Assembly (NCBI GenBank): GCA_019670725.1
Contig: AP024629.1
Location: forward strand, 3,720,001-3,784,000
Direction of reading: 5' to 3'
DNA length: 64,000 nt
From: Alphaproteobacteria bacterium SO-S41
Lineage (GTDB): Bacteria > Pseudomonadota > Alphaproteobacteria > Micropepsales > Micropepsaceae
In this document: positions 1 to 12,316 of the stretch, piece by piece
How the letters are laid out: every line of letters begins with the position of its first letter
How positions within the stretch are numbered: the first letter of the stretch is position 1
Translations under genes and position numbers: made by a program
The notes under the pieces: generated by a model
Told to the model about the DNA's origin: nothing
The model's database searches: none
The model's input: only the letters and a program-made list of their open reading frames with translations

Positions 1-53
1 GTGCAGGCGAAGAGCATGGCATCCGGCAGGTCTTCGCCGTTCGGCCCCTTCAT
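1..53 (-). CDS. Low-molecular-weight protein tyrosine phosphatase / arsenate reductase-like protein, N-terminal fragment
   Basis: Only the first 17 codons lie in the window; the gene runs off the left edge. The start ATG overlaps the stop of the UPF0262 gene in an ATGA junction, so the two are translationally coupled. The visible peptide contains LPDAMLFAC, which matches the first strand leading into the phosphate-binding loop of low-molecular-weight phosphatases (a Cys right after a hydrophobic strand). In many alphaproteobacteria such a gene follows UPF0262 downstream of hisD, which supports the call. The remaining catalytic loop cannot be seen. Confidence 0.6.
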
Positions 54-538
54 GACCGGCCGGATTCGTCCCGCGCATGCAGCGCGCAGATGAGCGTAAA
101 GAGCCGCCGCGCCGTATCGAAGTCGAGTTCGATCTTGTCTTTGAGCCGTTCCAGCAGCACTTCGCTGCCTTCGTTGTGCAGACCCCGCCGCCCCATGTCG
201 ATCGCCTCGATCTGCGAGGGCGCCGCGGTCTTGATCGCAGAATAGTAGCTTTCGCAGATGAAGAAATAATCCTTCACGATGCGGCGGAACGGCGTCAGCG
301 ACAGGACGAGCCGGCCATGCGGTTCGCGCGCTTCGGTCAGCACATCGAACACCAGCCGCCCGTCTTCCAGCGCGAGGCGCAGCACATAGGGCCCGCCCGG
401 CGAGCCCTTGGGCTTGAAGGAGTTGGCCTCCAGCAGGTCGAAGATCGCGACGCGGCGCTCGTGGTCGACATCCGGCCCGCGCGACTGGATCGACGCCTCG
501 TCCAGCTCGATATCGGCGAGGCGAAAATTGTCGCTCAT
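50..538 (-). CDS. UPF0262 family protein
   Basis: This is a 162-residue cytoplasmic protein of a family found almost only in alphaproteobacteria; its function is unknown. The ATG chosen begins [14 protein letters not shown], overlaps the hisD stop by four bases (ATGA), and gives the usual family length of about 160 residues; the open frame extends upstream into hisD but without a better start. Recognisable stretches are the early [13 protein letters not shown] and the C-terminal [11 protein letters not shown]. Its fixed place between hisD and a small phosphatase gene is conserved in alphaproteobacteria, but its presence in the histidine cluster does not by itself prove a role in histidine synthesis. 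Confidence 0.9.
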
Positions 539-1827
539 CGGTTGAGCCGGATCGCGACGCTGCGCGCATGCGCCGGCAGGCCTTCGGACCCCGCCAGCGT
601 CACCGCCGCCGGGCCGATCTCGCTCAAAGCCTCCGCCGAGCATTGCACCAACGTCGTCCGCTTCATAAAGTCGAGCACGCCGAGCCCGCTGGCGAACCGC
701 GCGGTGCGCGAGGTCGGCAAGACGTGGTTCGGCCCAGCGACATAGTCGCCGATCGCTTCGGGCGTATGACGGCCGAGGAAGATTGCACCGGCATGGCGTA
801 CGCGCGCGGCTAGCGCTTCGGGATCGGCGACGGCGAGTTCCAGATGTTCCGGCGCGATGGCGTCGACCAGCGCCGGCGCTTCGTCGAGCGAGCGTACGAG
901 GATGACCGCGCCGTTGGCGTCCCAGCTCGCCCGCGCGGTGCCTTCACGCAACGAGCCCGTGAGTTCGCTCTCGATCGCCCGCAGCACCGCACGCGCGAAG
1001 GCGGCATCATCGGTGATGAGGATCGCCTGCGCGCTCGCGTCGTGCTCGGCCTGGCTGAGGAGGTCGGCGGCGATCCAGGCGGGATCGTTGTCGCCATCCG
1101 CGACGACCAGGATTTCCGACGGCCCCGCGATCATGTCGATGCCGACCTGGCCGAAGACGCGGCGCTTGGCGGCAGCGACATAGGCATTGCCGGGGCCGGT
1201 GATCTTGTCGACGGGGCGGATCGTTTGCGTCCCATAGGCGAGCGCCGCCACCGCCTGCGCCCCGCCGATGCGGTAGATCTCGGAGACGCCCGCCAGTTTC
1301 GCCGCCGCGAAGACCAGCGGGTTCAGCGCGCCGTCCGGCGTCGGCACGACCATGGCGATGCGCTGCACGCCCGCCACCACGGCCGGGATGGCGTTCATCA
1401 GCACGCTCGAGGGATACGACGCCGTGCCGCCGGGGACGTAGATCCCTGCCGCGTCCACCGCCGTCCACCGCACGCCGAGGCGCACGCCGGCTGCGTCGGT
1501 ATAGTCGATCGCCCCCGGCAACTGCTTTTCATGGAAACTGCGGATGCGCTCCGCCGCGATACCGAGCGCCGCCAGTGCCTCCGCCGAGGCGCCAGACGCC
1601 GCCGCATCGATCTCTGCCGCGCTCATGCGCAGCGTCTCCGAGGTCAACGTCAGCCGGTCCCAGCGCGCCGTGTACTCCAGCACCGCCGCATCGCCGCGCG
1701 CCCGGACATCCGCGATGATCGCGGCCACGGCGGCATCGACATCCTCTTCCGCCTCGCGGGCGAGGTGGAGCAGATGCTCGAATTCCGCGGCAAAACCGGG
1801 ATCGCTGGTCGCAAGACGGAGAGCCAT
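535..1827 (-). CDS. hisD: Histidinol dehydrogenase
   Basis: HisD oxidises L-histidinol to L-histidine in two NAD-dependent steps, the last reactions of histidine synthesis in the cytoplasm. The 430-residue product has the expected length when started at the ATG giving [12 protein letters not shown]; a longer open frame exists but adds atypical residues. Family residues are visible: SQAEHDAS carries the zinc-ligand Gln and His, APEHLEL the Glu-His general base pair, [13 protein letters not shown] the zinc-ligand Asp, and LPAHARS near the end the last zinc-ligand His. It is the first visible gene of a coupled minus-strand operon with UPF0262. Immediately upstream lies foreign-looking hipBA DNA instead of DUF2948, which usually precedes hisD. 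Confidence 0.97.
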
Positions 1828-1913
1828 GGCGCCAGATGTGCCGGAGGCGCGGCGGCGGATCAATGGTCAAGGCGCGCGGAACCATTGCTCCATAAACAGG
1901 TTATATGGGCTAG

Positions 1914-2005
1914 ATATGATCTATTTATGGATCGTCACTTTACATAGCATCCTAGTTGATCTATAAACGTCCCAAGAATGCACAATATGATCTATTTATA
2001 GACCG
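1914..2005. promoter_or_regulatory. Repeated operator-like sites upstream of hipB
   Basis: The 181 bp between hisD and hipB is AT-rich for this genome. Two 21-bp sequences, at 1914-1934 and 1985-2005, are identical except for two bases and share the core TGATCTATTTAT; they start 71 bp apart. A third partial copy of the core TGATCTAT lies at 1958-1965. The second site carries the dyad CTATTTATAG and ends four bases before the hipB start codon. HipB-type antitoxins are known to bind repeated operators upstream of their own gene, so autoregulation of hipBA is the natural reading. The same sites could also affect hisD, which is divergent. Confidence 0.6.
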
Positions 2006-2008
2006 AAC

Positions 2009-2347
2009 ATGCCCAAACCCGCCCTCCGCCCCTATTCCCGCTACAGCCGCGACGCCGTCGCTTTGCTAGGTCAGGCGATCCGCCGCGCGCGGATCGAGAA
2101 GAAGCTGACCGTCGGCGCCCTCGCCGAGCGGGCCGGCGTGTCGCGCGGTCTCGTCCAGCGCATCGAGCAGGGCGATCCCGGCTGCGGCGTCGGGCCGGTC
2201 TTCGAGGCCGCGGCGATCGTCGGCCTGCGCCTGTTCGACGCCGACCAGGCGGCGCTCAGCCAACTCGCCGACCAGACCGCGGCGACCCTTACCCTCCTGC
2301 CCAAGACGGTGCGTGCGCCGCGGATCGTGACCGACGATGACTTCTGA
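2009..2347 (+). CDS. hipB: XRE-family HipB-like antitoxin/repressor
   Basis: This 112-residue DNA-binding protein is the likely antitoxin of the following HipA kinase. A helix-turn-helix of the XRE (Cro/CI) type spans about residues 33-56, with LTVGALAERAGVSRGLVQRI as recognition unit. The C-terminal third, rich in hydrophobic and acidic residues, would contact HipA. It starts directly after the last operator-like repeat and overlaps hipA by 11 bases, so the two are co-translated. Gene order (antitoxin first) and length agree with hipBA modules. Regulation is probably by HipB or the HipBA complex binding the three upstream sites. Confidence 0.85.
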   Translation: MPKPALRPYSRYSRDAVALLGQAIRRARIEKKLTVGALAERAGVSRGLVQRIEQGDPGCGVGPVFEAAAIVGLRLFDADQAALSQLADQTAATLTLLPKTVRAPRIVTDDDF

Positions 2348-3632
2348 CGCTGTCGCCCCTGACTCCGCCTATCGCGAGGCCTTCGTCTGGGTCTGGCTGC
2401 CCGGCGCGACCGCGCCCGTCGTCGCCGGCCGTCTCGACGCGATCGAGGGGCGGCTGATCTTCACCTATGGCCGCTCCTATCTGGCGCGCGAGAACGCCAT
2501 CCCGCTCTACCAGCCCGAACTGCCGCTGGAGACCGGGCCCCTGCCCTTGCTCAACGGGCTGGACATGCCGAGCGCCATCCGCGACGGCGCGCCGGATGCC
2601 TGGGGCCGCCGGGTCATCATCAACCGCAAGCTGGGCGCCGCCGGGCGCAGCGTCGATCCCGCGACCTTCGACGAGCTGACCTTCATGCTGGAATCGGGCT
2701 CCGACCGGATCGGCGCGCTCGACTTCCAGGCCTCGCCATCAGCCTATGTCGCGCGCGAGACCTCCAGCGCGACGCTGGACGAATTGCTGAACGCGGCCGA
2801 AAGCGTCGAGCATGGTGTGCCGCTCAGCCCCGAACTCGACCAGGCGCTGCTGCACGGCTCGTCGATCGGCGGCGCGCGACCCAAGGCGCTGATCGTTGAT
2901 GGCGATGCGAAATACATCGCCAAGTTTTCCTCGCAGAACGATCTCTATTCGGTGGTGAAGGCGGAATTCGTCGCCATGCGCCTCGCCGCCGCCGCCGGGC
3001 TGAACGTTGCGCCGGTGATGCTGAACCATGCCGCCGGCAAGGACGTGCTGCTGATCCAGCGCTTCGACCGCACCCGCGTGCCGCAAGGCTGGCGGCGGCA
3101 TCTGATGGTCTCGGCGCTGACGCTGCTGGAGCTCGACGAGATGAATGCGCGCTACGCCTCCTACGAGGATTTCGCGACTATCGTGCGCCATCGCTTCGTG
3201 CAGCCGAAACAGACGCTGCGCGAACTCTTCGCGCGCATGTGCTTCAACATTCTATGTGGGAATACGGACGATCACGCCCGCAACCACGCCGCCTTCTGGA
3301 ACGGCGCGGAGCTTGAGCTGACGCCCGCCTACGACATCTGCCCCCAGGGCCGCTCCGGCGGCGAGGCGGGACAGGCCATGCTCATTTACGGCAACCAGAA
3401 TTTCAGCCGCATCGAGCTCTGCCTCAAAACCGCGCCGTCCTTCCTGGTCAGCGAAGCCGACGCCACCGCCCTCATCGCGAACCAGATCGCCACCATCCGC
3501 GACCACTGGGACACCGTGTGCGACGAAGCCGCCCTCACGGACATCGACCGCGCCCTGATGTGGCGCCGGCAGTTCCTGAACCCGTATGCGTTCGAGGGCG
3601 CGCCGGGCGAGTTGGCGGGGATGGTGGGATAA
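2337..3632 (+). CDS. hipA: HipA-type serine/threonine kinase toxin
   Basis: HipA toxins are kinases; the E. coli protein phosphorylates glutamyl-tRNA synthetase and induces dormancy, but the target here is unknown. The 431-residue protein has the N-terminal HipA subdomain (GLDMPSAIRDGAPDAWGRR, residues about 74-92), SDRIGALDF near 122-130, the phosphate loop SIGGARPK around 176-183 whose Ser corresponds to the autophosphorylated Ser150 of E. coli HipA, the catalytic NTDDHARN at 309-316, and the metal-binding AYD at 331-333. All key residues seem intact, so the toxin is probably functional. It ends 16 bp from the convergent reverse transcriptase gene. Confidence 0.93.
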   Translation: MTSDAVAPDSAYREAFVWVWLPGATAPVVAGRLDAIEGRLIFTYGRSYLARENAIPLYQPELPLETGPLPLLNGLDMPSAIRDGAPDAWGRRVIINRKLGAAGRSVDPATFDELTFMLESGSDRIGALDFQASPSAYVARETSSATLDELLNAAESVEHGVPLSPELDQALLHGSSIGGARPKALIVDGDAKYIAKFSSQNDLYSVVKAEFVAMRLAAAAGLNVAPVMLNHAAGKDVLLIQRFDRTRVPQGWRRHLMVSALTLLELDEMNARYASYEDFATIVRHRFVQPKQTLRELFARMCFNILCGNTDDHARNHAAFWNGAELELTPAYDICPQGRSGGEAGQAMLIYGNQNFSRIELCLKTAPSFLVSEADATALIANQIATIRDHWDTVCDEAALTDIDRALMWRRQFLNPYAFEGAPGELAGMVG

Positions 3633-3648
3633 CAACAAGCGCCTTGAG

Positions 3649-4887
3649 CTATGTGTCGTCCAGCAGCTCTTCAACTTGATCGTGGAGCCCTTCAATTCCC
3701 AAGAATTGCTGACCCTCTGGGGTTATGTTCCGAACAATCTCAAATCCGAAAATGGTCTCTAGAACATCCTTGATGATTGCCCTAGTGGTGGCGCGCAATT
3801 GGCCGTCGAGTGCTTGATAATTTGAGGCGTGAGCATATGCCCCACGATAGGCAGATAGGGTGCGGGACAGAGCAATATTGACATCTGCCAGCGTGAGCTT
3901 CTCGCGCACGATTTCAGAAGGACTATATTCCGCCTTTAGCGAACTAACAATTTTCGCGATTTGCGCCTTCGAAATTCTAGCGACATAGGCGTCGGATTTA
4001 TCAAGGTATAAAATTTCTTGGCCCAGAAATTCCAACGGATCGTCCGGCCCCCGCACGATCGTTTTTGAGTTGCCGCCCAAATTCGGAATTTTTAGGTCGA
4101 GCTTTTGCAGAAGCAAAGTTACTACGCTCCCAGCAGCAATCGCTGCGTCTTTGCTGTCGGCAAACACTACTAGGTCGTCCGCATAACGTACCATCCTAAT
4201 AGCTTGGCGTTCGATCTCCTTGTCAAACCTCGCTAACGCCAAATTGGCTAGCATAGGCGAAAGTGGCATCCCCTGACGCACCCCTTCACCGCGCTTTATC
4301 CCTTGCGCAGCGAGCGTTCTGGCAACTGAGGGTTTGGCTTCGGCTTCACAATCGATAGCGTCGAGCACCAGTTTGGTGAGGCTACTATTTCCCAGTTTTT
4401 TGCGAACCTCCTCCTTGAGGTAGTTTCGCGGGATACGGTCAAAGAATGATTCAATATCCGTCTTAAAACACCACGTTCCGCGGGAACGGGCACTACGTGC
4501 GGCTTCAATGGCTTTAAGAGTGCTGACGCCCTTGAGAAAACCAAAAGACGAATTGTTGTAGATAGGGAATTTTCTCTTATTTTCTAAATAGGCGCATATA
4601 CTACGCTGAACGAGCCGGTCGCGAACTGTCGGCACGCATATAATGCGAAATTTGTCGTTGTTAGTCTTCGGTATTCTAATTACTCGAAGCGGCGCATATC
4701 CAAACTGACCTGATTTAATCTCAGAATGAATTGCGCTGATATTCGCCGCCAAATTTCGTTTGAATATGGCGCTAGTAACATGATCGACGCCGTCTCCACC
4801 GCGTGCCCGAGACCTATCTCTAGAGCTGTTCCAAGCTTCGGTTAGCGCTGAAACGGAAAGTATTTTAGATGGCTTGGAAACTTGCAT
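3649..4887 (-). CDS. Solitary reverse transcriptase (group II intron-like or defence-type)
   Basis: The 412-residue protein is an RNA-directed DNA polymerase. Visible RT blocks are FKTDIESFFDRI at 141-152 with a catalytic Asp, RQGMPLSPMLANL at 204-216, RMVRYADDLVVFAD at 231-244 with the YADD active site, and EFLGQEI at 286-292; residues 340-370 look like a thumb. SFGFLKG at 114-120 resembles the GFRPGRS region of intron RTs. No HNH endonuclease, protease or helicase domain is attached. Retron hallmarks (NAxxH, VTG) and the SQ block of diversity-generating RTs are absent. The ATG was preferred over an upstream TTG. The gene is visibly AT-richer than its neighbours, pointing to horizontal transfer. 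It may be a bacteriophage-defence RT; that is inference. Confidence 0.85.
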   Translation of the reverse strand: MQVSKPSKILSVSALTEAWNSSRDRSRARGGDGVDHVTSAIFKRNLAANISAIHSEIKSGQFGYAPLRVIRIPKTNNDKFRIICVPTVRDRLVQRSICAYLENKRKFPIYNNSSFGFLKGVSTLKAIEAARSARSRGTWCFKTDIESFFDRIPRNYLKEEVRKKLGNSSLTKLVLDAIDCEAEAKPSVARTLAAQGIKRGEGVRQGMPLSPMLANLALARFDKEIERQAIRMVRYADDLVVFADSKDAAIAAGSVVTLLLQKLDLKIPNLGGNSKTIVRGPDDPLEFLGQEILYLDKSDAYVARISKAQIAKIVSSLKAEYSPSEIVREKLTLADVNIALSRTLSAYRGAYAHASNYQALDGQLRATTRAIIKDVLETIFGFEIVRNITPEGQQFLGIEGLHDQVEELLDDT

Positions 4888-4940
4888 TAGCTGAGACCTA
4901 GGCTCGAGCAAGATAGACCTAGGTCCTTTTCCTTAGCCGT

Positions 4941-5019
4941 CAACAGAAGGTCAAAGACGCCTCTGCCGTGTACCAGGGCTTCGCTGTGGCCTCGCTCGCG
5001 CGCGACACGCTCGTCCCGG
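4941..5019. repeat. 79-bp perfect direct repeat, copy 1
   Basis: It is identical over all 79 bases to the copy at 5247-5325. Unlike the surrounding AT-richer DNA it is GC-rich and has protein-coding-like third positions in one plus-strand frame (reading for example SAVYQGFAVASLARD), so it may be a fragment of a host gene that was copied here. It lies about 55 bp upstream of the reverse transcriptase start. No transposon-type terminal inverted repeats border it. Confidence 0.95.
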
Positions 5020-5246
5020 GATTAATCGCCGCTGAGAAGTTATTCCGCGCGAATAATCGCCCGACAATAACACAACGGAACCCGCTCCAGTAGCCCCGGC
5101 ACCAAAAGAACAAACCGAATACAAACCGGAAACGAAAAGAGCTGGAAATTTGCTCCCGCCCCCTCGGCCGTCCCTCACAATGGCTACCAGCGTTGCTCTG
5201 GAATTTAACTATCCTACGCACTGGAACCTCCGATGATTGAAATCCG

Positions 5247-5325
5247 CAACAGAAGGTCAAAGACGCCTCTGCCGTGTACCAGGGCTTCGCTGTGGCCTCG
5301 CTCGCGCGCGACACGCTCGTCCCGG
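5247..5325. repeat. 79-bp perfect direct repeat, copy 2
   Basis: This is the second, identical copy, offset by exactly 306 bp from the first. The flanking bases differ on both sides, so the repeat boundaries are sharp. Perfect identity outside any recognisable gene implies either a recent duplication or selection on the sequence, for example as part of an RNA template. Beyond it, 5326-5520 holds no gene; a promoter-like TATATT sits at about 5466-5471, followed by a strong ribosome-binding-like AAGGAGGG at 5510-5517 in front of a GTG that opens no credible protein. Confidence 0.95.
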
Positions 5326-5520
5326 CTCAATCATCGTCGAGAGATCGCTTCTGGGAAGAAACGAACACCAACGCGTCTTTTTAGAACGAAACTGGAACTT
5401 CCGCAACTCCCCTGAAGTTGGCGCGAAGTGTCACCATGTCGCGTTGCAGAAAAGGTATTTAGTCCTATATTCGCCTGTCGGGCAGCAAGCCATCGCCACC
5501 CGGACAAAGAAGGAGGGCGG

Positions 5521-5709
5521 GTGAAACAAGTTCGAAAAATCGACATTCGAATGCCTGCCGTAGCGTCAACCGATGACGCAAAACCCCTTCCCCTCCGACT
5601 CCCGGTGACAAACGAAGATGCTTTTCGCCGGAGTCGCGACACAACATGTCGCGAAGGGTGCGACAGGGAGGGGAGACCCCAAAAAAATCCCGGATCAATT
5701 CCACCCCAC
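5521..5709 (-). repeat. Dispersed intergenic element of about 190 bp, copy A
   Basis: Read on the minus strand it begins GTGGGGTGGAATTGATCC at 5709 and ends after ATTCGAATGTCG and a T-rich run. The first 27 bases match the element at 31861 with one mismatch, and the ATTCGAA block falls 158 bases in, against 159 in the other copy; the middle differs. An internal hairpin with eight-base arms TCGCGACA and TGTCGCGA lies at 5634-5654. It sits just downstream of the DUF2948 gene, between it and the RT island. It encodes nothing recognisable and has no transposase. Confidence 0.6.
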
Positions 5710-5727
5710 GGCCGAGGGTGCCGCGGC

Positions 5728-6162
5728 TCAGTCCAGCGCGTGCTCCGGGCGGGCCTTGGCGGGCCAGGGGCCGGCGAGGTCGTCCAGGTGGATCTCCAGC
5801 GCCTCGACATGCAGCTCGATCACCCCGCCGCCCGAAAAGGCGAGGCGCAGCGCCCCGCCGCCTTCCGCCCAGGGCTGGAAGGTCAGGGCGAGGAGGCTCA
5901 GCACCGCGTCCTTGGCGTCCTGGCGGATGCGGGTCGCCTTGGCGGAGACGACCTCCTCGATCCTCAAGCCGCAGCGCACGCGCTCGCCCCGGCCGCCGGC
6001 CCGGCCCGCTTCCCAGCGGAAGCGGTTGGCGACCAGCGCGAAGCGGCGGGCCTTGGGCAAGAAGGCGATGTCGCCGACCCTGAGGACCGCGTCCTGCGCC
6101 AGCGCCGACAGCGCCGCGAGGTCGCCCTCATCCTCGACTGCGAGTTTCAGGGCCTCAGCCAT
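5728..6162 (-). CDS. DUF2948 family protein
   Basis: This 144-residue protein belongs to an alphaproteobacterial family of unknown function, typically encoded next to hisD. Characteristic stretches are the N-terminal LKLAVEDEGDLAALSALAQDAV, here shortened in quotation, the central RFRWE with a following arginine-rich loop, and the C-terminal IELHVEALEIHLDDLAGPWPA. The ATG overlaps the end of the small upstream gene by eight bases (ATGGCTGA), so translation is coupled. In the usual arrangement hisD would follow directly; here about 3.9 kb of hipBA and reverse transcriptase DNA intervenes. No catalytic motif is apparent. Confidence 0.85.
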   Translation of the reverse strand: MAEALKLAVEDEGDLAALSALAQDAVLRVGDIAFLPKARRFALVANRFRWEAGRAGGRGERVRCGLRIEEVVSAKATRIRQDAKDAVLSLLALTFQPWAEGGGALRLAFSGGGVIELHVEALEIHLDDLAGPWPAKARPEHALD

Positions 6163-6316
6163 GCGCGGGAGGCTCCGATTCGGCGGGTTGGGGCGTTTGC
6201 GGCGCGGTTTCGGGTGCCTGCGCCCCGGCCGCCTGGGCCCGCGCCTGGGCCTTGCGGCGGCGCAGATTGGCCTTCAGGGCTTCCGCCTGGCGCTTTTCCC
6301 GGTCTTCGCGGCTCAT
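6155..6316 (-). CDS. Small basic/alanine-rich protein preceding DUF2948
   Basis: A 53-codon gene starts MSREDREKRQAEALKANLRR, continues with an RRKAQARAQA stretch and ends in a proline- and glutamate-rich tail. Its N-terminal half is strongly basic and helical, and small proteins with the core ALKANLRRRKAQ are common directly upstream of DUF2948 in alphaproteobacteria, which is why I accept it despite its size. It overlaps DUF2948 by eight bases. Function is unknown; a nucleic-acid or ribosome contact would be possible from its charge, but nothing in the sequence proves it. Confidence 0.65.
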   Translation of the reverse strand: MSREDREKRQAEALKANLRRRKAQARAQAAGAQAPETAPQTPQPAESEPPAHG

Positions 6317-6406
6317 GGCATGGGAGTAGCGTCAGACAAGGAAATCCGCCAGCGCCCTTTGCATCCGCCCTTCCCGTGTGTATAGCACGCCCCTCGCGGA
6401 AAGCGG

Positions 6407-6481
<75 letters not shown>

Positions 6482-6569
6482 TTCTCCGTCGCGCCCCGCC
6501 ATCCTTTGGTATGGCCCCACCACGACATTGGACAATGGCGCGCCGCCGCACGGACGGCGATGCTGCGGC

Positions 6570-6797
6570 ATGCCGTCAAATACCGACGCTGGCGGAAAGC
6601 GCTTCCGCATCCGCTGTCTCGGCCAGCCGCACTCAGGCGCCGACAGCTGTGAGGATTTCGACACGTTCGAGGAAGCCAAGGACGCGGCGGAGCAGCGCTG
6701 GGCCGCGGGCGATCTCTACGGCGTCGTCGTCACCGAGCGGATGAGCGTCGAGGGACGCCTCGTCTGGGTGGCGCTCTGGTCACTGCCGCTGGTTTAG
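6570..6797 (+). CDS. Small hypothetical protein
   Basis: The 75-residue frame beginning MPSNTDAGGKRF has a plausible coding pattern and an acidic central helix (FDTFEEAKDAAEQRW) followed by a beta-like GVVVTERM...LVWVALW segment. This resembles small single-domain proteins that interpret another polypeptide's loops, but no family is recognised. A longer start at 6528 is possible but adds residues of low-complexity character. It lies 89 bp after tRNA-Thr and 165 bp before tamA, with no clear ribosome-binding site. It is called with moderate confidence only. Confidence 0.45.
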   Translation: MPSNTDAGGKRFRIRCLGQPHSGADSCEDFDTFEEAKDAAEQRWAAGDLYGVVVTERMSVEGRLVWVALWSLPLV

Positions 6798-6962
6798 CGC
6801 CTATCCACAGTCTTCTCGGCGTCAAGTCTTGCCTCGCGGCGATGTGCGCGATCTTTTGCCGCCTGCGCGCATCCTTATGCAGGCGAGCGCGTTTGGAGTC
6901 TTGATGTCGAGCGCGCTGTCGTCAGTTACGAGGATTGCGATGGCGTTCGTGGGCGGACGGCC

Positions 6963-8741
6963 ATGATCTTTCCGGCCGCGCTCTCGCTCATCGCCGCGCT
7001 CTCGTTCCCCTTCTTCGGGGGCGATGAGGAGAAGCAGCCCGAAAAGCCGCCCGAGCCCGTCGACACCCAGGCGCTCGCCTATGACGTGACGCTGATCGGC
7101 CCGGACGATCCGGATCTCGCCGAGCGCATCCGCGGCGATCTGGAACTGGAGAAGAAGAAGGAACGCGGCACGCCTTCCGTCGGTGTGCTGGAATCCAGGA
7201 TGGAGAAGGACCTGGAGCGCGCGCGCCATGCCCTTCAGGCCTATGGCTATTATGACGGCACGGCGACCGGCGCGATCACGCAGGACACGCGCCTCCACGC
7301 CACCATCCGCGTCGAGCAGGGCCTGCTCTACCGGATCGGCGTCTTCGCGGTGACCTGGCAGGGCGCGCGGCCCGCCTATACGCCGCAGACCGTCGGCGAG
7401 GGCCTGCCCGCCACCGGTCTCAACATCGTCGCGGCGGGCGAGCGCATCGTCGCCGAGCTGAAGACGCTCGGCTATTTCGACGCCCGCATGGTGGAGCGCC
7501 GCGCGGTGCTCGATCGCGGGGCGGGCAAGGTCGATGTCACCTTGATCGTCGATCCAGGCAATGTCGTCTCGGTGGGCGGCTTCAAGGTGAGCGGGGCGGA
7601 GACGATTCCCGAGGCCCGCGTGGTGCGCCTTTCCAAGCTGGAGATCGGCGAGTTGCTGACGCCGCCGCGGCTGCAGGAAGCCGAAGACAAGCTGATGGAG
7701 AGCGGCATCTTCAACGAGGCCCGCGTCAGCGCGATCGGCGTGGCGCCGGCGCGGCTGATCGGACTTACCGTCACCGAGCGCCTGCCGCGCAGTATCAGCG
7801 GCGCGATCAAGTGGTCGCTGCAGGACGGCTATGCGATCGAGGCGGCGTGGGAACATCGCAACATCTTCGGCGACGCCGAAAAACTGCGCGCCGCCATCAC
7901 GGTGGGCAGCCTGACTCAGAGCCTCGATGTGTCGTATCGCGAATACGATGTGCTGTTCGACAACCACACTTTGGTCGCCAGCCTGAACGTCGCGCACGAG
8001 GATGTGGACGGCCTGGTCTACGAGCAGGCGGCCCTGATCGGCACGCTGGAAACCGACATCTATAAGGGCGTCATTCTGCGCTATGGCGGCTCGATCGAGT
8101 ATGTGCATGACGAGACGCAGCTCGAGGGCGGCGACTTCGCGCTGGTGGGCCTCCGCGTCGAGGCGACCTATGACGGGGCGAACGATCTGTTCGATCCGAC
8201 CGAAGGTTTCCGCGCCTCTGTGCGGATCGGGCCGTATATCGGCTGGAACGGGGATCTCAGGAATTTCACGATCCTTGAGGCGGTGGGCTCGGCCTATCTG
8301 CCGCTGGACGAGGAAAAGACCTGGGTGCTCGCGGGCCGGCTGAGGCTGGGGTCGATTGTCGGCGACGGGCGCGACGATATCCCGCTGCCCAAGCGGTTCT
8401 TCGCCGGTGGGGGTGGCTCGATCCGCGGCTACAGCTACAAGCGCGCCGGACCGATCGATGCCGACGACCGGCCCATCGGCGGCGCATCGGTCGTTGAGTT
8501 CAACGGCGAGGTGCGCTGGCGCATCAATGAGGATTTCGGCGCGGCGGTCTTCGTCGACGCCGGCGGCGCGTTTGAGAGCAATATTCCCGGCCAGGGCGGT
8601 GACTGGTTCATCGGCGCCGGCGCGGGTGTACGCTATTATTCGCCGATCGGTCCCGTGCGGCTGGATGTCGCCGCGCCGATCAACGCGCGCTCGGGAGAAC
8701 CCGGCGTGCAGATCTACGTCTCCATCGGACAGGCCTTCTGA
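6963..8741 (+). CDS. tamA: Outer-membrane translocation/assembly protein TamA
   Basis: TamA is an Omp85-family outer-membrane protein which, with TamB, helps insert or transport outer-membrane proteins and phospholipids. The 592-residue product starts with a short hydrophobic signal segment (MIFPAALSLIAALSF), continues with POTRA-type domains to about residue 270, and ends in a beta-barrel. RFFAGGGGSIRGYSY near residue 480 is the conserved (V/I)RG(F/Y) barrel lid-lock motif, and the chain ends in aromatic QAF as in barrel proteins. Its stop shares one base with the tamB start (TGATG), so both are one operon. The length fits the family. Confidence 0.93.
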   Translation: MIFPAALSLIAALSFPFFGGDEEKQPEKPPEPVDTQALAYDVTLIGPDDPDLAERIRGDLELEKKKERGTPSVGVLESRMEKDLERARHALQAYGYYDGTATGAITQDTRLHATIRVEQGLLYRIGVFAVTWQGARPAYTPQTVGEGLPATGLNIVAAGERIVAELKTLGYFDARMVERRAVLDRGAGKVDVTLIVDPGNVVSVGGFKVSGAETIPEARVVRLSKLEIGELLTPPRLQEAEDKLMESGIFNEARVSAIGVAPARLIGLTVTERLPRSISGAIKWSLQDGYAIEAAWEHRNIFGDAEKLRAAITVGSLTQSLDVSYREYDVLFDNHTLVASLNVAHEDVDGLVYEQAALIGTLETDIYKGVILRYGGSIEYVHDETQLEGGDFALVGLRVEATYDGANDLFDPTEGFRASVRIGPYIGWNGDLRNFTILEAVGSAYLPLDEEKTWVLAGRLRLGSIVGDGRDDIPLPKRFFAGGGGSIRGYSYKRAGPIDADDRPIGGASVVEFNGEVRWRINEDFGAAVFVDAGGAFESNIPGQGGDWFIGAGAGVRYYSPIGPVRLDVAAPINARSGEPGVQIYVSIGQAF

Positions 8742-11700
8742 TGAGCGACCAGACGACGACACCACCTCCCGCCCTGCCCCGCCGCCCGCATTCGCTCGCT
8801 TTGCGTATTGCAAGATGGACCGGCATCGTCCTGCTCGCGATCATCGTGCTGATCACTGGCGTGCTGTTGTGGCCGGGGACGCGCGAATGGGCGTTCAATT
8901 ACGGGCGCTCGATTCTCGACGAGGCCGGCGTCAAGTCGTCGTCGATTACCGGCGACTGGACGGAGATGACGCTGCACGACGTTGCCATCACCGATGCCGA
9001 AGGAACGTGGGCAACGGCGGATGAGGTGGTGCTGTCGTGGTCGCCCTGGGGGCTCGCCAGCTTTACGCTGGATGCCGACCATGTCGCGTTCAAGGGCGCG
9101 CATGTGCTGCGCGCCCCCGCCTATACGCCGGCGCCTGACCAGAAGGACGAGCCATTCGCCTGGCCCGACCTTCCCGTCGATATCACGCTCGGCAGTCTGG
9201 TCGGCGACATCACCATCGACCCGTCGCTGATCGGCGAAGCCGTCACCGCGACCGTGACGGGCAAAGCGGAGCTGACCTCGACGGGCGGCTCGGCGGAACT
9301 GGCGTTGACCCGCAGCGACGGTGTCGCCGGCGAAGCATCCGTGTCGGTCAAATCGAAAGCCGATCTCGGCGACATCGCCCTCGCGGTCAATGCGAAGGAC
9401 GCGCGCATCGTCGCGGCCCTCGCGGGCGATCCGCGGCTGACCAATCTTGAGGTTGCGCTGCAGGCGACGCGCACCGGAACCGAATGCACCGGCCAGGCCG
9501 CCATCGCGGCGCGGGACGGGGCGCTCGCGAGCCTTGGCGTCAATCCTGACTGCACTTTTGCCCTGACCCTGGCCGAGGTCGCGCGATTGCTGCCGCCGGA
9601 TACCGGCCTCTCAGGTCAGGCCAACCTGTCCGTGCAGTTGCGCGAGGACGGCAGCGACAAGACCACGCATTTCCTGCTCGCCGCCGATCTTTCGAAACTG
9701 ATGTCGACCGATGCGATGTTCGCGCGGCTGCTGCCCGGCGCTTCGGCGACCGGACTATTGCGCTTCACGGCCGGCGGTGTCCGCGTCGACGATCTGCAGG
9801 CGCAGCTTGGGAGCGGCACGATCACGCTGACAGGCTGGGCCGAGCAGACCAATGCGGAGCTGAAGACCGAAGCCGATCTCGCCTCGACCGATCTCGCGGT
9901 GGTGCGGCCCGATCTGAAGGGCAGTGCGCAAGCGCATCTCACATATGACACGGCGGCAGCGACCCCGATCGCTATAACTGCGACGGGCGAAAATGTCGTG
10001 GCCGGCGGCCTCACCTGGCCGTCGATCGCGCTGCAGGGCGCCGTCGACGGCGCGGGCACGGGTCAGGTCTCGGTCAAAGGCGATGGCGAAACGCCGATCG
10101 ATCTCGTCGCGACCATCGCAGGCGCTTTCGGCGATGCGCCCAGCATCGATGCGAAAGGCGTTGTCGCCTCAGCGAACATCACCGCGAAGACGGTCCCCGC
10201 TGCGGCGGGCGGCACCGATCTGACCGCATCGATCGACACGCAGCGCCTTGACCGGCTGGGCGCGATAGCCGGCGTCGATGTCGCGGGCAGTCTCAAGGCC
10301 GATCTGTCTGCGCGTCTCAACGCGACGCCGGAGATTGCGTTGACAGCCTCGATCGCCGGCGGCCGGTATGGCGGCACGCCGATTGGTGACGGGAAGCTCA
10401 GCGCCAAGGGACCTCTCGCATCGCTGGCGATCGAGCTGTCAGGTACCGCGCCGGCGGCGGGACAGTCCGTCGTGTACAGGTTGGCGGCCGTTGTCGCCGA
10501 TTTCAACAAGGCGCAGGTCTCCGCTCTGTCGCTGAAGGCCGGCCAGGCCGGGTTGGATGCCTCGGGACCTTTCACGGTCGCTTTCGCATCGGGCGTCATG
10601 GTGGACGGCCTGGATGCGCGGCTGAGCCGAAGCGGCAAGGCGGCGGGCCGCATCGTCGCCAGTGCGGCACAAGGCGATAGCGGCGTGAAGACAACAGTGG
10701 CGCTGACCGGGCTCGACCTGGAGGCGCTGACCGCGGTGCTCGGCCGCGCGACCGTCAAAGGCCTGCTCGACGCCAATGCGACGCTCGACGGCGGCGCCGG
10801 CCGCGCGACGCTCGACGGCCGGATTGCCGGCCTTCGCGCCGGCAGTGGGGGTCGAGCGCCGCCGGCCGATATCGCGCTGAAGGGCAGCTGGAACGGCGGG
10901 CGTTTCACGCTGACCGCTACCGCGACGGCGAACGGCCTGCCCGATGCGCGCGCTGAAATTGCCTTCCCGCTTGCGCGTGCGGCCGACGGTGGATTCCCTT
11001 CGCCGGCGACGAACGCACAGCTGACCGGCTCGGTCTCGTGGAGCGGGCGAATCGCGCCGATCTGGCGGCTGGTCGATATTGACGGTCAGGACCTCGACGG
11101 CGACGCCAATATCCAGGCGAAGATCGCGGGCACGCTGAGCGATCCGAAATTCTCCGGCAGTGCCTCACTGGCGAATGGCCGCTATGCCAATGACGGTTTC
11201 GGCACGCGCCTCGCGGGCCTGTCGCTGAAGGCGGAGATTACCGGCGATCGCGTGACGCTCAACGGCGAGGCGACGGACGGCGCAGCCGGGCGCATGGCGA
11301 TCAACATGGCCGCGACCCTGGGCGGCGGTTACGGCGCGGCGTCAGGCGGCGTCACGCTGACCTCGATGCAGTTGCTCGCACAGGACGAGTTGTCGGCGCG
11401 GTTCAATGGATCGTTGAAACTGGCGCCGGGCGCAAACGGCCCGGTCCTCGGCGGGGCGCTGACAGTGACCAATCTCGTTGCCGGCATTCCCGAAGGCCAG
11501 CCGGCGGATCTCGTGACCGTCGACGTCATCGATCCCGCCAAACCGCCGCCACCGTCGCCCACGCAGACCGCCAGCAGCAAAGCAGCACCCGCTGCGGCGG
11601 CACAGACGCTGGCGCTCGACATCAGCGTGGTGATCCCCGGTCCCGCCAAGGTCGAAGGGCGCGGAATCAACAGTTTGTGGAAGGGCGATCTCAAGATTCT

Positions 11701-12316
11701 CGGCGACGCCACCGATCCGCGCATCCGCGGCAAGCTGACGCTGTTGCGTGGCACGCTCGATTTCGGCTCGCGCAGCTTTGCGCTGACCGAAGGCGAGATC
11801 GAATTCGACGGCGGACCGACGATCGAGCCGCGCATCAATATCGTGGCGACGCAGGAAGAGGCCGACTTCACGGCGTCGCTGACGCTGAGCGGCCGGGCGA
11901 CGGCGCCCAAGATCACCGCAAGCTCGGTGCCTGCGCGACCGCAGGACGAGGTCTTCGCCGCGCTGCTGTTCGGACGGTCGGTCTCCAGCCTGTCGGCGCT
12001 GGAAGGGCTGGAGCTTGCCAACTCCATCGCGGCGCTTTCAGGCGGTGCGGATGTGCGCGGCAGTGTGCTCGGCGATCTCCGCAACAAGTTCGGGCTGGAC
12101 GTGTTGGCGGTTGATCTCGGCGAAGGCGGCAATCCCACGGTGCGGGCCGGCAGCTATCTCGCCGACAATATCTATTTCGAACTGCGCCAAGGCGGCGCGA
12201 ATGGCGGCACGACGGGCCGGGTCGAGTTGCAGATCGACGAGAACATCTCGGTCGAGACGGAGGTCGGCCCGCAATCGTCGAGCAGCGTCGGTGCGCGCTA
12301 CAAGCTCGACTATTGA
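8741..12316 (+). CDS. tamB: Translocation/assembly module TamB
   Basis: TamB is a very long inner-membrane-anchored, periplasm-spanning protein of the AsmA/VPS13-like group; it works with TamA in the outer membrane. The 1191-residue product has one N-terminal transmembrane helix (IVLLAIIVLITGVLLW, about residues 27-42), a long repetitive beta-rich body, and the conserved C-terminal DUF490 domain with LKILGDATDPRIRGKLTLLRG, GTLDFGSRSF and a final VGARYKLDY. A proline-rich spacer around residue 930 separates body and C-terminal domain. It is translationally coupled to tamA and ends four bases from the convergent crotonase gene. Confidence 0.94.
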   Translation: MSDQTTTPPPALPRRPHSLALRIARWTGIVLLAIIVLITGVLLWPGTREWAFNYGRSILDEAGVKSSSITGDWTEMTLHDVAITDAEGTWATADEVVLSWSPWGLASFTLDADHVAFKGAHVLRAPAYTPAPDQKDEPFAWPDLPVDITLGSLVGDITIDPSLIGEAVTATVTGKAELTSTGGSAELALTRSDGVAGEASVSVKSKADLGDIALAVNAKDARIVAALAGDPRLTNLEVALQATRTGTECTGQAAIAARDGALASLGVNPDCTFALTLAEVARLLPPDTGLSGQANLSVQLREDGSDKTTHFLLAADLSKLMSTDAMFARLLPGASATGLLRFTAGGVRVDDLQAQLGSGTITLTGWAEQTNAELKTEADLASTDLAVVRPDLKGSAQAHLTYDTAAATPIAITATGENVVAGGLTWPSIALQGAVDGAGTGQVSVKGDGETPIDLVATIAGAFGDAPSIDAKGVVASANITAKTVPAAAGGTDLTASIDTQRLDRLGAIAGVDVAGSLKADLSARLNATPEIALTASIAGGRYGGTPIGDGKLSAKGPLASLAIELSGTAPAAGQSVVYRLAAVVADFNKAQVSALSLKAGQAGLDASGPFTVAFASGVMVDGLDARLSRSGKAAGRIVASAAQGDSGVKTTVALTGLDLEALTAVLGRATVKGLLDANATLDGGAGRATLDGRIAGLRAGSGGRAPPADIALKGSWNGGRFTLTATATANGLPDARAEIAFPLARAADGGFPSPATNAQLTGSVSWSGRIAPIWRLVDIDGQDLDGDANIQAKIAGTLSDPKFSGSASLANGRYANDGFGTRLAGLSLKAEITGDRVTLNGEATDGAAGRMAINMAATLGGGYGAASGGVTLTSMQLLAQDELSARFNGSLKLAPGANGPVLGGALTVTNLVAGIPEGQPADLVTVDVIDPAKPPPPSPTQTASSKAAPAAAAQTLALDISVVIPGPAKVEGRGINSLWKGDLKILGDATDPRIRGKLTLLRGTLDFGSRSFALTEGEIEFDGGPTIEPRINIVATQEEADFTASLTLSGRATAPKITASSVPARPQDEVFAALLFGRSVSSLSALEGLELANSIAALSGGADVRGSVLGDLRNKFGLDVLAVDLGEGGNPTVRAGSYLADNIYFELRQGGANGGTTGRVELQIDENISVETEVGPQSSSSVGARYKLDY

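Follow-up and report, generated by a model that had tools for sequence, protein, structure and literature searches.

Why should a solitary reverse transcriptase (RT) gene be preceded, on its own strand, by a 438-bp segment that is bounded by two perfect 79-bp repeats? The question arises at positions 3649-5325 of a 64,000-nt stretch of the genome of Alphaproteobacteria bacterium SO-S41 (contig AP024629.1, positions 3,720,001 to 3,784,000), and this whole stretch is called the window below. A reading made from the letters alone (the sequence-only reading) had proposed a possible unclassified RT-based defence system with a functional upstream segment. Its direction was right, but it overlooked that the repeat unit is a multiple of three in length and carries a frame that would never end if the unit were chained. 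With A and A' for the 5' and 3' copies of the repeat and B for the sequence between them, we consider it likely that an A-B-A' RNA serves as the template of the RT, which jumps from A to A' and thereby produces a chain (A-B)n encoding a never-ending membrane protein. We strongly infer that the upstream segment is copied by this RT.

Layout of the cassette and the frame of its unit

The cassette in the window has the following features.

RT gene: 3649-4887, minus strand; 412 amino acids (aa) from ATG, group-II-type fold with thumb.
Hairpin: 4894-4926 (33 nt), minus strand; GGACCTAGGT-ctatcttgctcga-GCCTAGGTCT, in the gap that separates A' from the RT gene.
Repeat A': 4941-5019, minus strand; 3', RT-proximal copy, 79 bp, identical to A.
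Segment B: 5020-5246, minus strand; 227 bp, the non-repeated part of the 306-nt unit, in which the frame of A stays open.
Repeat A: 5247-5325, minus strand; 5' copy, 79 bp, identical to A'.
A-B unit: 5020-5325, minus strand; 306 nt or 102 codons, stop-free if chained end to end.
Shine-Dalgarno-like motif: 5226-5231, minus strand; GGAGGT, upstream of a GTG start.
Genomic single-copy frame: 4940-5221, minus strand; 93 aa from the GTG start, ends 1 base past A'.
Left edge of the 5' copy: 5320-5339, minus strand; GATT-GAG-CCGGG, compared with GATT-AATC-CCGGG at about 5014-5033 for A'.

The two repeats start 306 nt apart, and the 4.44-Mb genome holds no further copy. The segment before the RT had been called gene-free. 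It lies on the RT strand as described, but it is not simply gene-free, because a frame is open through both repeats and has the start site GGAGGT-TCCA-GTG (5231-5219, with the GTG at 5221-5219). A promoter-like pair, TTGACC-16-AATCAT, lies ahead of this GTG. In the genome, the frame stops at a TGA (4942-4940); in a chained unit, it continues into B. Two AGACCTAGG boxes (4894-4902 and 4914-4922, plus strand) had been listed in addition to a hairpin. They are present, but they are the two arms of the hairpin at 4894-4926 and not separate elements, as CCTAGG is palindromic.

A single-protein search of genome contigs returned no relatives, and the RT cassette is absent from the members of the same genus and family that were searched. 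Plasmid matches to the window RT are 27-34% identical. An alignment-based search of public collections yielded 80 genome loci and 6 viral-contig loci, 86 homologous loci together, and scans of viral contigs contributed few members. The 86 fetched loci, the plasmid hits and the window formed the set in which the layout was surveyed. A long direct repeat directly precedes the RT in the first relatives inspected (4/4), and open reading frames (ORFs) open through both copies were read in three of them. A scripted scan of all loci then gave the order A, B, A', hairpin, RT in 56 loci, the window included. The repeats in these 56 loci are 54-162 bp long, at least 96% identical, and end 25-293 nt before the RT match. 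Every one of them has exactly two copies of A. Repeats were called by strict extension first; a gapped aligner over-extended into unrelated flanks. The "patches" that gapped alignment gave outside A were discarded, and A was compared with A' in the ungapped register only.

Nine homologues (L005, L036, L038, L048, L056, L057, L072, L074, L077) lack the repeat pair and carry a single A beside the RT. Apparently, these loci have collapsed by recombination or deletion between the direct repeats, and the single copy would be the expected scar. They can serve as naturally occurring knock-outs in comparisons. The cassette is found in Bradyrhizobium, Burkholderiales, sphingomonads and Acinetobacter, and also on prophage-like contigs and plasmids. 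The record L069 (labelled Heimdallarchaeota) is near-identical to the Acinetobacter locus L070, and L043 (labelled Frankia) is near-identical to Bradyrhizobium loci. Both records are probably contaminant contigs.

Unit length: The A-B unit, measured between the starts of the two copies of the repeat, spans 291-453 nt, and its length is divisible by three in 50 of the 56 loci (P = 4e-18, binomial against one third). With one locus per RT cluster, the multiple of three is kept in 37/40 at <60% identity and in 25/26 at <45%.

Open frame: Of these 50 units, each joined to itself, 49 have a stop-free frame on the RT strand and 9 have one on the opposite strand; shuffles lead one to expect 5.2. In genomes of low GC content (guanine plus cytosine; Acinetobacter, Psychrobacter), the other frames contain many stops. 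With a length divisible by three and a stop-free frame, the unit would read as an endless gene once its copies were chained.

Start site: In 38 of 49 units, the endless frame has a start codon preceded by a Shine-Dalgarno run (≥5 nt). The corresponding counts are 13 and 11 for the other frames and about 15 for codon shuffles. The start codon mostly lies 5-8 or 17-22 codons into B.

Hydrophobicity: The endless frame contains a hydrophobic 19-mer (Kyte-Doolittle value >1.6) in 38/49 units, while the control frames gave 11, 3 and 4.

Protein constraint: In close pairs, the ratio of non-synonymous to synonymous change (dN/dS) of the endless frame is mostly 0.3-0.7, and changes at the third codon position are in excess (P = 0.002). 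Hence, the constraint on the protein is real but loose; strict conservation applies to the frame itself.

Several results weigh against a never-ending product. The coding constraint is modest, the codon-position signal in A alone is not significant, and mismatches between A and A' are mostly non-synonymous (64 to 15). Six loci have units that are not a multiple of three, and the RT is intact in five of them; in L022, it is truncated. L039 and L042 have small indels within A, which make the spacing 402 when taken at one end but 401 when taken at the other, and the unit of L065 is one base shorter than that of its close relative L046. All six were counted as exceptions. Taken alone, the endless frame of the window is not significant (P ~0.10), its hydrophobic stretch is weak (Kyte-Doolittle 0.99), and the 3' end of the window RNA folds no better than shuffles overall (z -0.42). 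No -10 promoter signal was found at a fixed position upstream of A, and promoters within the chained unit show no overall excess (7.71 vs 7.49). Lastly, the B-A junction is already genomic, unlike in the defence RT (DRT) system DRT2, and a 93-aa single-unit product could therefore arise without any RT.

Promoter-like pairs of the form TTGnnn-16/18-TATnnT recur in the 3' part of B (L019, L020, L024, L026, L035, L040, L049, L058, L059, L069, L007). They are not significant overall; in the genome, such pairs could act as promoters of the RT, and in a chain, of the endless frame.

Repeat A, the hairpin and the proposed mechanism

Repeat A: Within clades, the nucleotide conservation of A is far above that of B, which is fast-evolving. 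Within the beta/gamma clade, a single homologous site of 1-4 nt, just after a conserved GGC, distinguishes A from A' in 14 of 15 loci (L025, L028, L031, L032, L044, L046, L066, L006, L027, L029, L035, L055, L091, L093), and the copies in these loci are otherwise identical save a few scattered changes. No random placement reached such a shared position (P < 0.001). The letters of A' at the diverged site are often A-rich and common to relatives; those of the 5' A vary. The left edge of A/A' in the window is the probable counterpart of this site. As the differences sit at one shared site, A and A' probably have distinct roles. The site could be an initiation or boundary site, or the scar of cDNA written back.

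Hairpin: In most loci, a hairpin lies directly 3' of A', and it folds better than shuffles (P ≤ 0.05) in 32/56. Compensatory pairs were found in the four groups that were folded (5/12 in the group that includes the window, 2/8, 7/7 and 3/13). We propose the hairpin as a putative RT-binding or priming element. Across distant homologues, the upstream region keeps its layout, a covarying hairpin and a conserved repeat, which agrees with the functional role that the sequence-only reading had assigned to it.

The proposed mechanism treats the locus as a two-part retroelement of the host type, which would not be mobile. An RNA from the RT strand would contain A-B-A', the hairpin and then the RT message. 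The RT would bind the 3' part of this RNA (hairpin and A') and begin cDNA synthesis in or near A', after which it would copy B and the 5' copy of A. As the new cDNA end would be complementary to A, it could re-anneal to the A' of its own template or of a second RNA molecule, from where synthesis would go on. The product would be a chain (A-B)n that is made double-stranded and transcribed. Translated, such a chain would give a repeat protein without end; each B would supply a start codon and, in most members, each unit would add one membrane-spanning stretch. As it accumulates, the repeat protein would probably bring infected cells to a halt in the way of Neo in DRT2, where phage triggers concatemeric cDNA and growth arrest, and by this analogy a role in defence is plausible.

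Strand transfer at the retroviral R region serves as a comparison for the jump from A to A'. Here, there is no long terminal repeat, integrase or RNase H, and the product would be a chain and not a provirus.

On balance, and with less confidence than for the mechanism itself, we favour a wider claim. A second, independent RT lineage would build never-ending genes by retrovirus-like strand transfer between long direct repeats, and not by the short-motif jumping of DRT2. Its product would be a chain of membrane-spanning modules, and the A/A' site would mark the template start or boundary or a scar of cDNA write-back. An endless gene built by an RT is already known; the enzyme family, the template design and the coding strand appear to be new. 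Gene synthesis by an RT is known from one family, DRT2. If the claim is true, a separate RT clade follows the same frame rule with another template design, and gene synthesis by RTs has had at least two origins. Annotation would then be overlooking a further class of hidden genes, and the long repeats might ease the reprogramming of such a template.

Known systems and rival readings

Among known systems, DRT2 is nearest in mechanism and DRT10 is nearest in template logic. DRT2 (UG2) is likewise a solitary RT with an upstream template (PMC12039810, PMC11100668). Its unit is always a multiple of three (50/56 loci here), one stop-free frame runs across the unit junctions (49/50 here), each unit has a Shine-Dalgarno run and a start codon, and the product is hydrophobic. 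The DRT2 template is less conserved than its flanks (PMC12039810), as B evolves fast between conserved copies of A, and the same kind of frame evidence led to the recognition of the DRT2 neo gene (PMC12039810). The systems differ in that the window RT is group-II-like and not UG2 (48 bits with the Drt2 model), in that direct repeats of 54-162 bp stand here against 3-nt ACA motifs in DRT2, and in that the unit has 291-453 nt here and about 111-129 nt in DRT2. The endless frame lies on the RT strand here (49/50), whereas it lies on the reverse complement of the noncoding RNA (ncRNA) in DRT2; we infer that the template RNA is read from the RT strand. As the unit junction is already genomic here, promoter reconstitution would not be the switch.

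The rival that survives best, although unlikely, is a conventional small gene. Translation would run from the start in B to the stop just past A' and give a small membrane protein (a toxin or sensor), the 5' A would be a regulatory leader, and the RT would be separate or copy the RNA once. The Shine-Dalgarno run and start codon in B, the hydrophobic stretch, a dN/dS below 1 and the genomic frame of the window, which ends one base past A', all suit such a gene. It does not predict an in-frame 5' A, however, and it leaves unexplained the multiple of three in 50/56 loci, the stop-free stretch upstream of the start, and the two near-identical copies of A in all 56 loci. A conventional B-A' membrane protein might still be made as an additional product.

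It is rather improbable that telomerase-like, DRT10-like or rolling-template synthesis makes a DNA that acts directly as effector, in the manner of DRT9 and DRT10, with coding only incidental. DRT10 (a UG17 RT with a SLATT protein and ncRNA; PMC12632851) has the same A-B-A' logic, in which the cDNA re-anneals to the second A, and UG17 is the best named DRT family for the window RT in PADLOC, with a low score. The dimensions differ: DRT10 has an A of about 4 nt in a unit of about 9 nt, compared with an A of 54-162 nt here. In DRT10, the RT is paired with a SLATT protein. No SLATT gene adjoins the window RT, which has hipA and a DUF2948 gene as neighbours, and none is among the 25 of 95 neighbour families listed for 36 homologues. 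The endless frame, the start site and the hydrophobicity would have no explanation if the DNA were the effector. Membership in DRT10 was rejected on the UG17 score (147 bits for the window RT vs 438.8 bits for a true member), the lack of an adjacent SLATT gene and the separate clade of the window RT.

Very unlikely is an origin of the frame in the chromosome, where RecA would act at A/A' and expand or collapse the unit, and the frame would be selected in chromosomal tandem arrays and not in cDNA. The nine homologues with a single A look as they would after such a collapse. Three or more copies of A are found in 0/56 loci, however, and neither the constant adjoining RT nor the covarying hairpin nor the asymmetric A/A' site would be explained.

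We give hardly any credence to a diversity-generating retroelement (DGR) with A and A' as template and variable repeats. An RT beside two near-identical repeats that differ at few bases does resemble one, but the differences comprise only 1-4 nt at one site and are often non-adenine (L046 TAC/ATG, L055 TC/GA, L091 C/G), many loci are 100% identical, and the repeats stand in tandem around one unit before the RT. A retron was rejected as well. The window RT reaches 76 of 235 bits with NF038233, lacks the VTG motif and lies outside the retrons in the tree; no msr-msd RNA appeared in the Rfam scan of 1-12000, with no dedicated search beyond Rfam. The earlier statement that the locus has neither retron nor DGR hallmarks is in line with these results. 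The group-II-type fold and the match of 176.6 bits to TIGR04416 would suit the remnant of a group II intron, degenerate or ORF-less, beside repeats that arose by chance. This reading is scarcely tenable: the score is far under the cut-off of 300 bits, Rfam shows no intron domain within 12 kb, the clade is separate from group II introns, and the layout is kept in 56 loci.

Placement of the reverse transcriptase and surroundings of the cassette

The RT ORF at 3649-4887 (minus strand) is intact and carries RQGMPLSP and YADD. An alternative TTG start at 4911 would fall within the hairpin at 4894-4926. RVT_1 is the only Pfam domain, without an endonuclease or partner domain, and the GC content is 48.8%, compared with 67-74% in neighbouring genes. 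The intact RT with its motifs, the lack of an endonuclease or partner domain and the AT-richness had been read correctly from the letters, as had the two perfect repeats. The RT is solitary and foreign to its genus.

PADLOC gave the window RT 191 bits with its RT model, 147 with UG17 and 48 with Drt2, which ranked behind further models too. With the UG17 model, the true member L097 scores 438.8 bits and group II introns score 140-179. TIGR04416, the group II maturase model, gave 176.6 bits against a cut-off of 300. By the standards of these curated models, the window RT is neither a UG17 nor a group II intron member. The Rfam scan of 1-12000 returned only a tRNA and a chance match, and no group II intron domains V/VI. 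The AlphaFold model, computed without the plasmid sequences, has a pLDDT of 92; its nearest folds are the GsI-IIC RT and the G2L4 RT, and the top Foldseek matches are 7k9y (a template-switching complex), 6ar1 and 9d4s. The likeness to the GsI-IIC and G2L4 RTs lies in the overall fold. Group II intron RTs differ from the window RT, which has no intron RNA, scores below the TIGR04416 cut-off and falls into a separate clade. G2L4 is marked by YIDD (PMC4244168), whereas the window RT has YADD.

A tree was built from 61 RTs, namely 40 family members, group II introns, Cas-fused RTs, a true UG17 member and retrons. The UG6, G2L and CRISPR-like classes lie outside this sampling. The alignment-based search also drew long RT fusions (L082-L086, L088, L090; 550-700 aa from the match), which were treated as Cas1-fused CRISPR RTs and used as the outgroup. 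In the tree, 39 of the 40 family members form one clade (support 95/85) apart from all compared classes, and L073 falls outside; the single true UG17 sequence sits on a long branch, and closeness to UG17 is not settled by this tree. Judged by the tree and the model scores, the window RT falls into a proteobacterial clade that excludes group II introns, CRISPR-RTs, DRT10/UG17 and retrons. This accords with the sequence-only reading of an unclassified RT, and the group II intron position that would have refuted that reading was not found.

The family appears to be undescribed and set apart from the classes compared, UG6 not among them. UG6 is named in papers without a description of upstream features. 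Searches of the open-access literature, with subscription papers and most preprints outside the coverage, turned up no report of this RT family, and long-repeat templates are absent from a 2026 overview of the products of DRT1-9 (PMC13213688).

On its other side, the RT gene is adjoined by the hipBA module named in the sequence-only reading.

hipBA: 2009-3632, plus strand; adjoins the RT gene.

The module is present as that reading had it, but it was misleading as context. The window RT has hipA on one side and a DUF2948 gene on the other, and in one same-genus genome hipA is directly followed by the DUF2948 gene, without the RT cassette between them. Therefore, the cassette was inserted between the two, and hipBA is an older, unrelated neighbour. 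A link of hipBA with the RT was rejected on the evidence of the same genome.

Among 114 neighbours, a few methyltransferases, MzaA, PDC-S14, PD-T7-1 and bSEFIR were counted; these are raw counts and weak evidence of an association with defence genes. The defence-gene neighbourhood was not used as support for the proposed mechanism.

An intact tRNA gene lies at 6407-6479 of the window, just past the DUF2948 gene. As it does not adjoin the cassette, there is no sign of integration at a tRNA site. In the Acetobacter plasmid locus L005, a 10-bp tandem repeat array (L005:6952-7400) lies beside the RT in a gene annotated as DNA damage-inducible protein.
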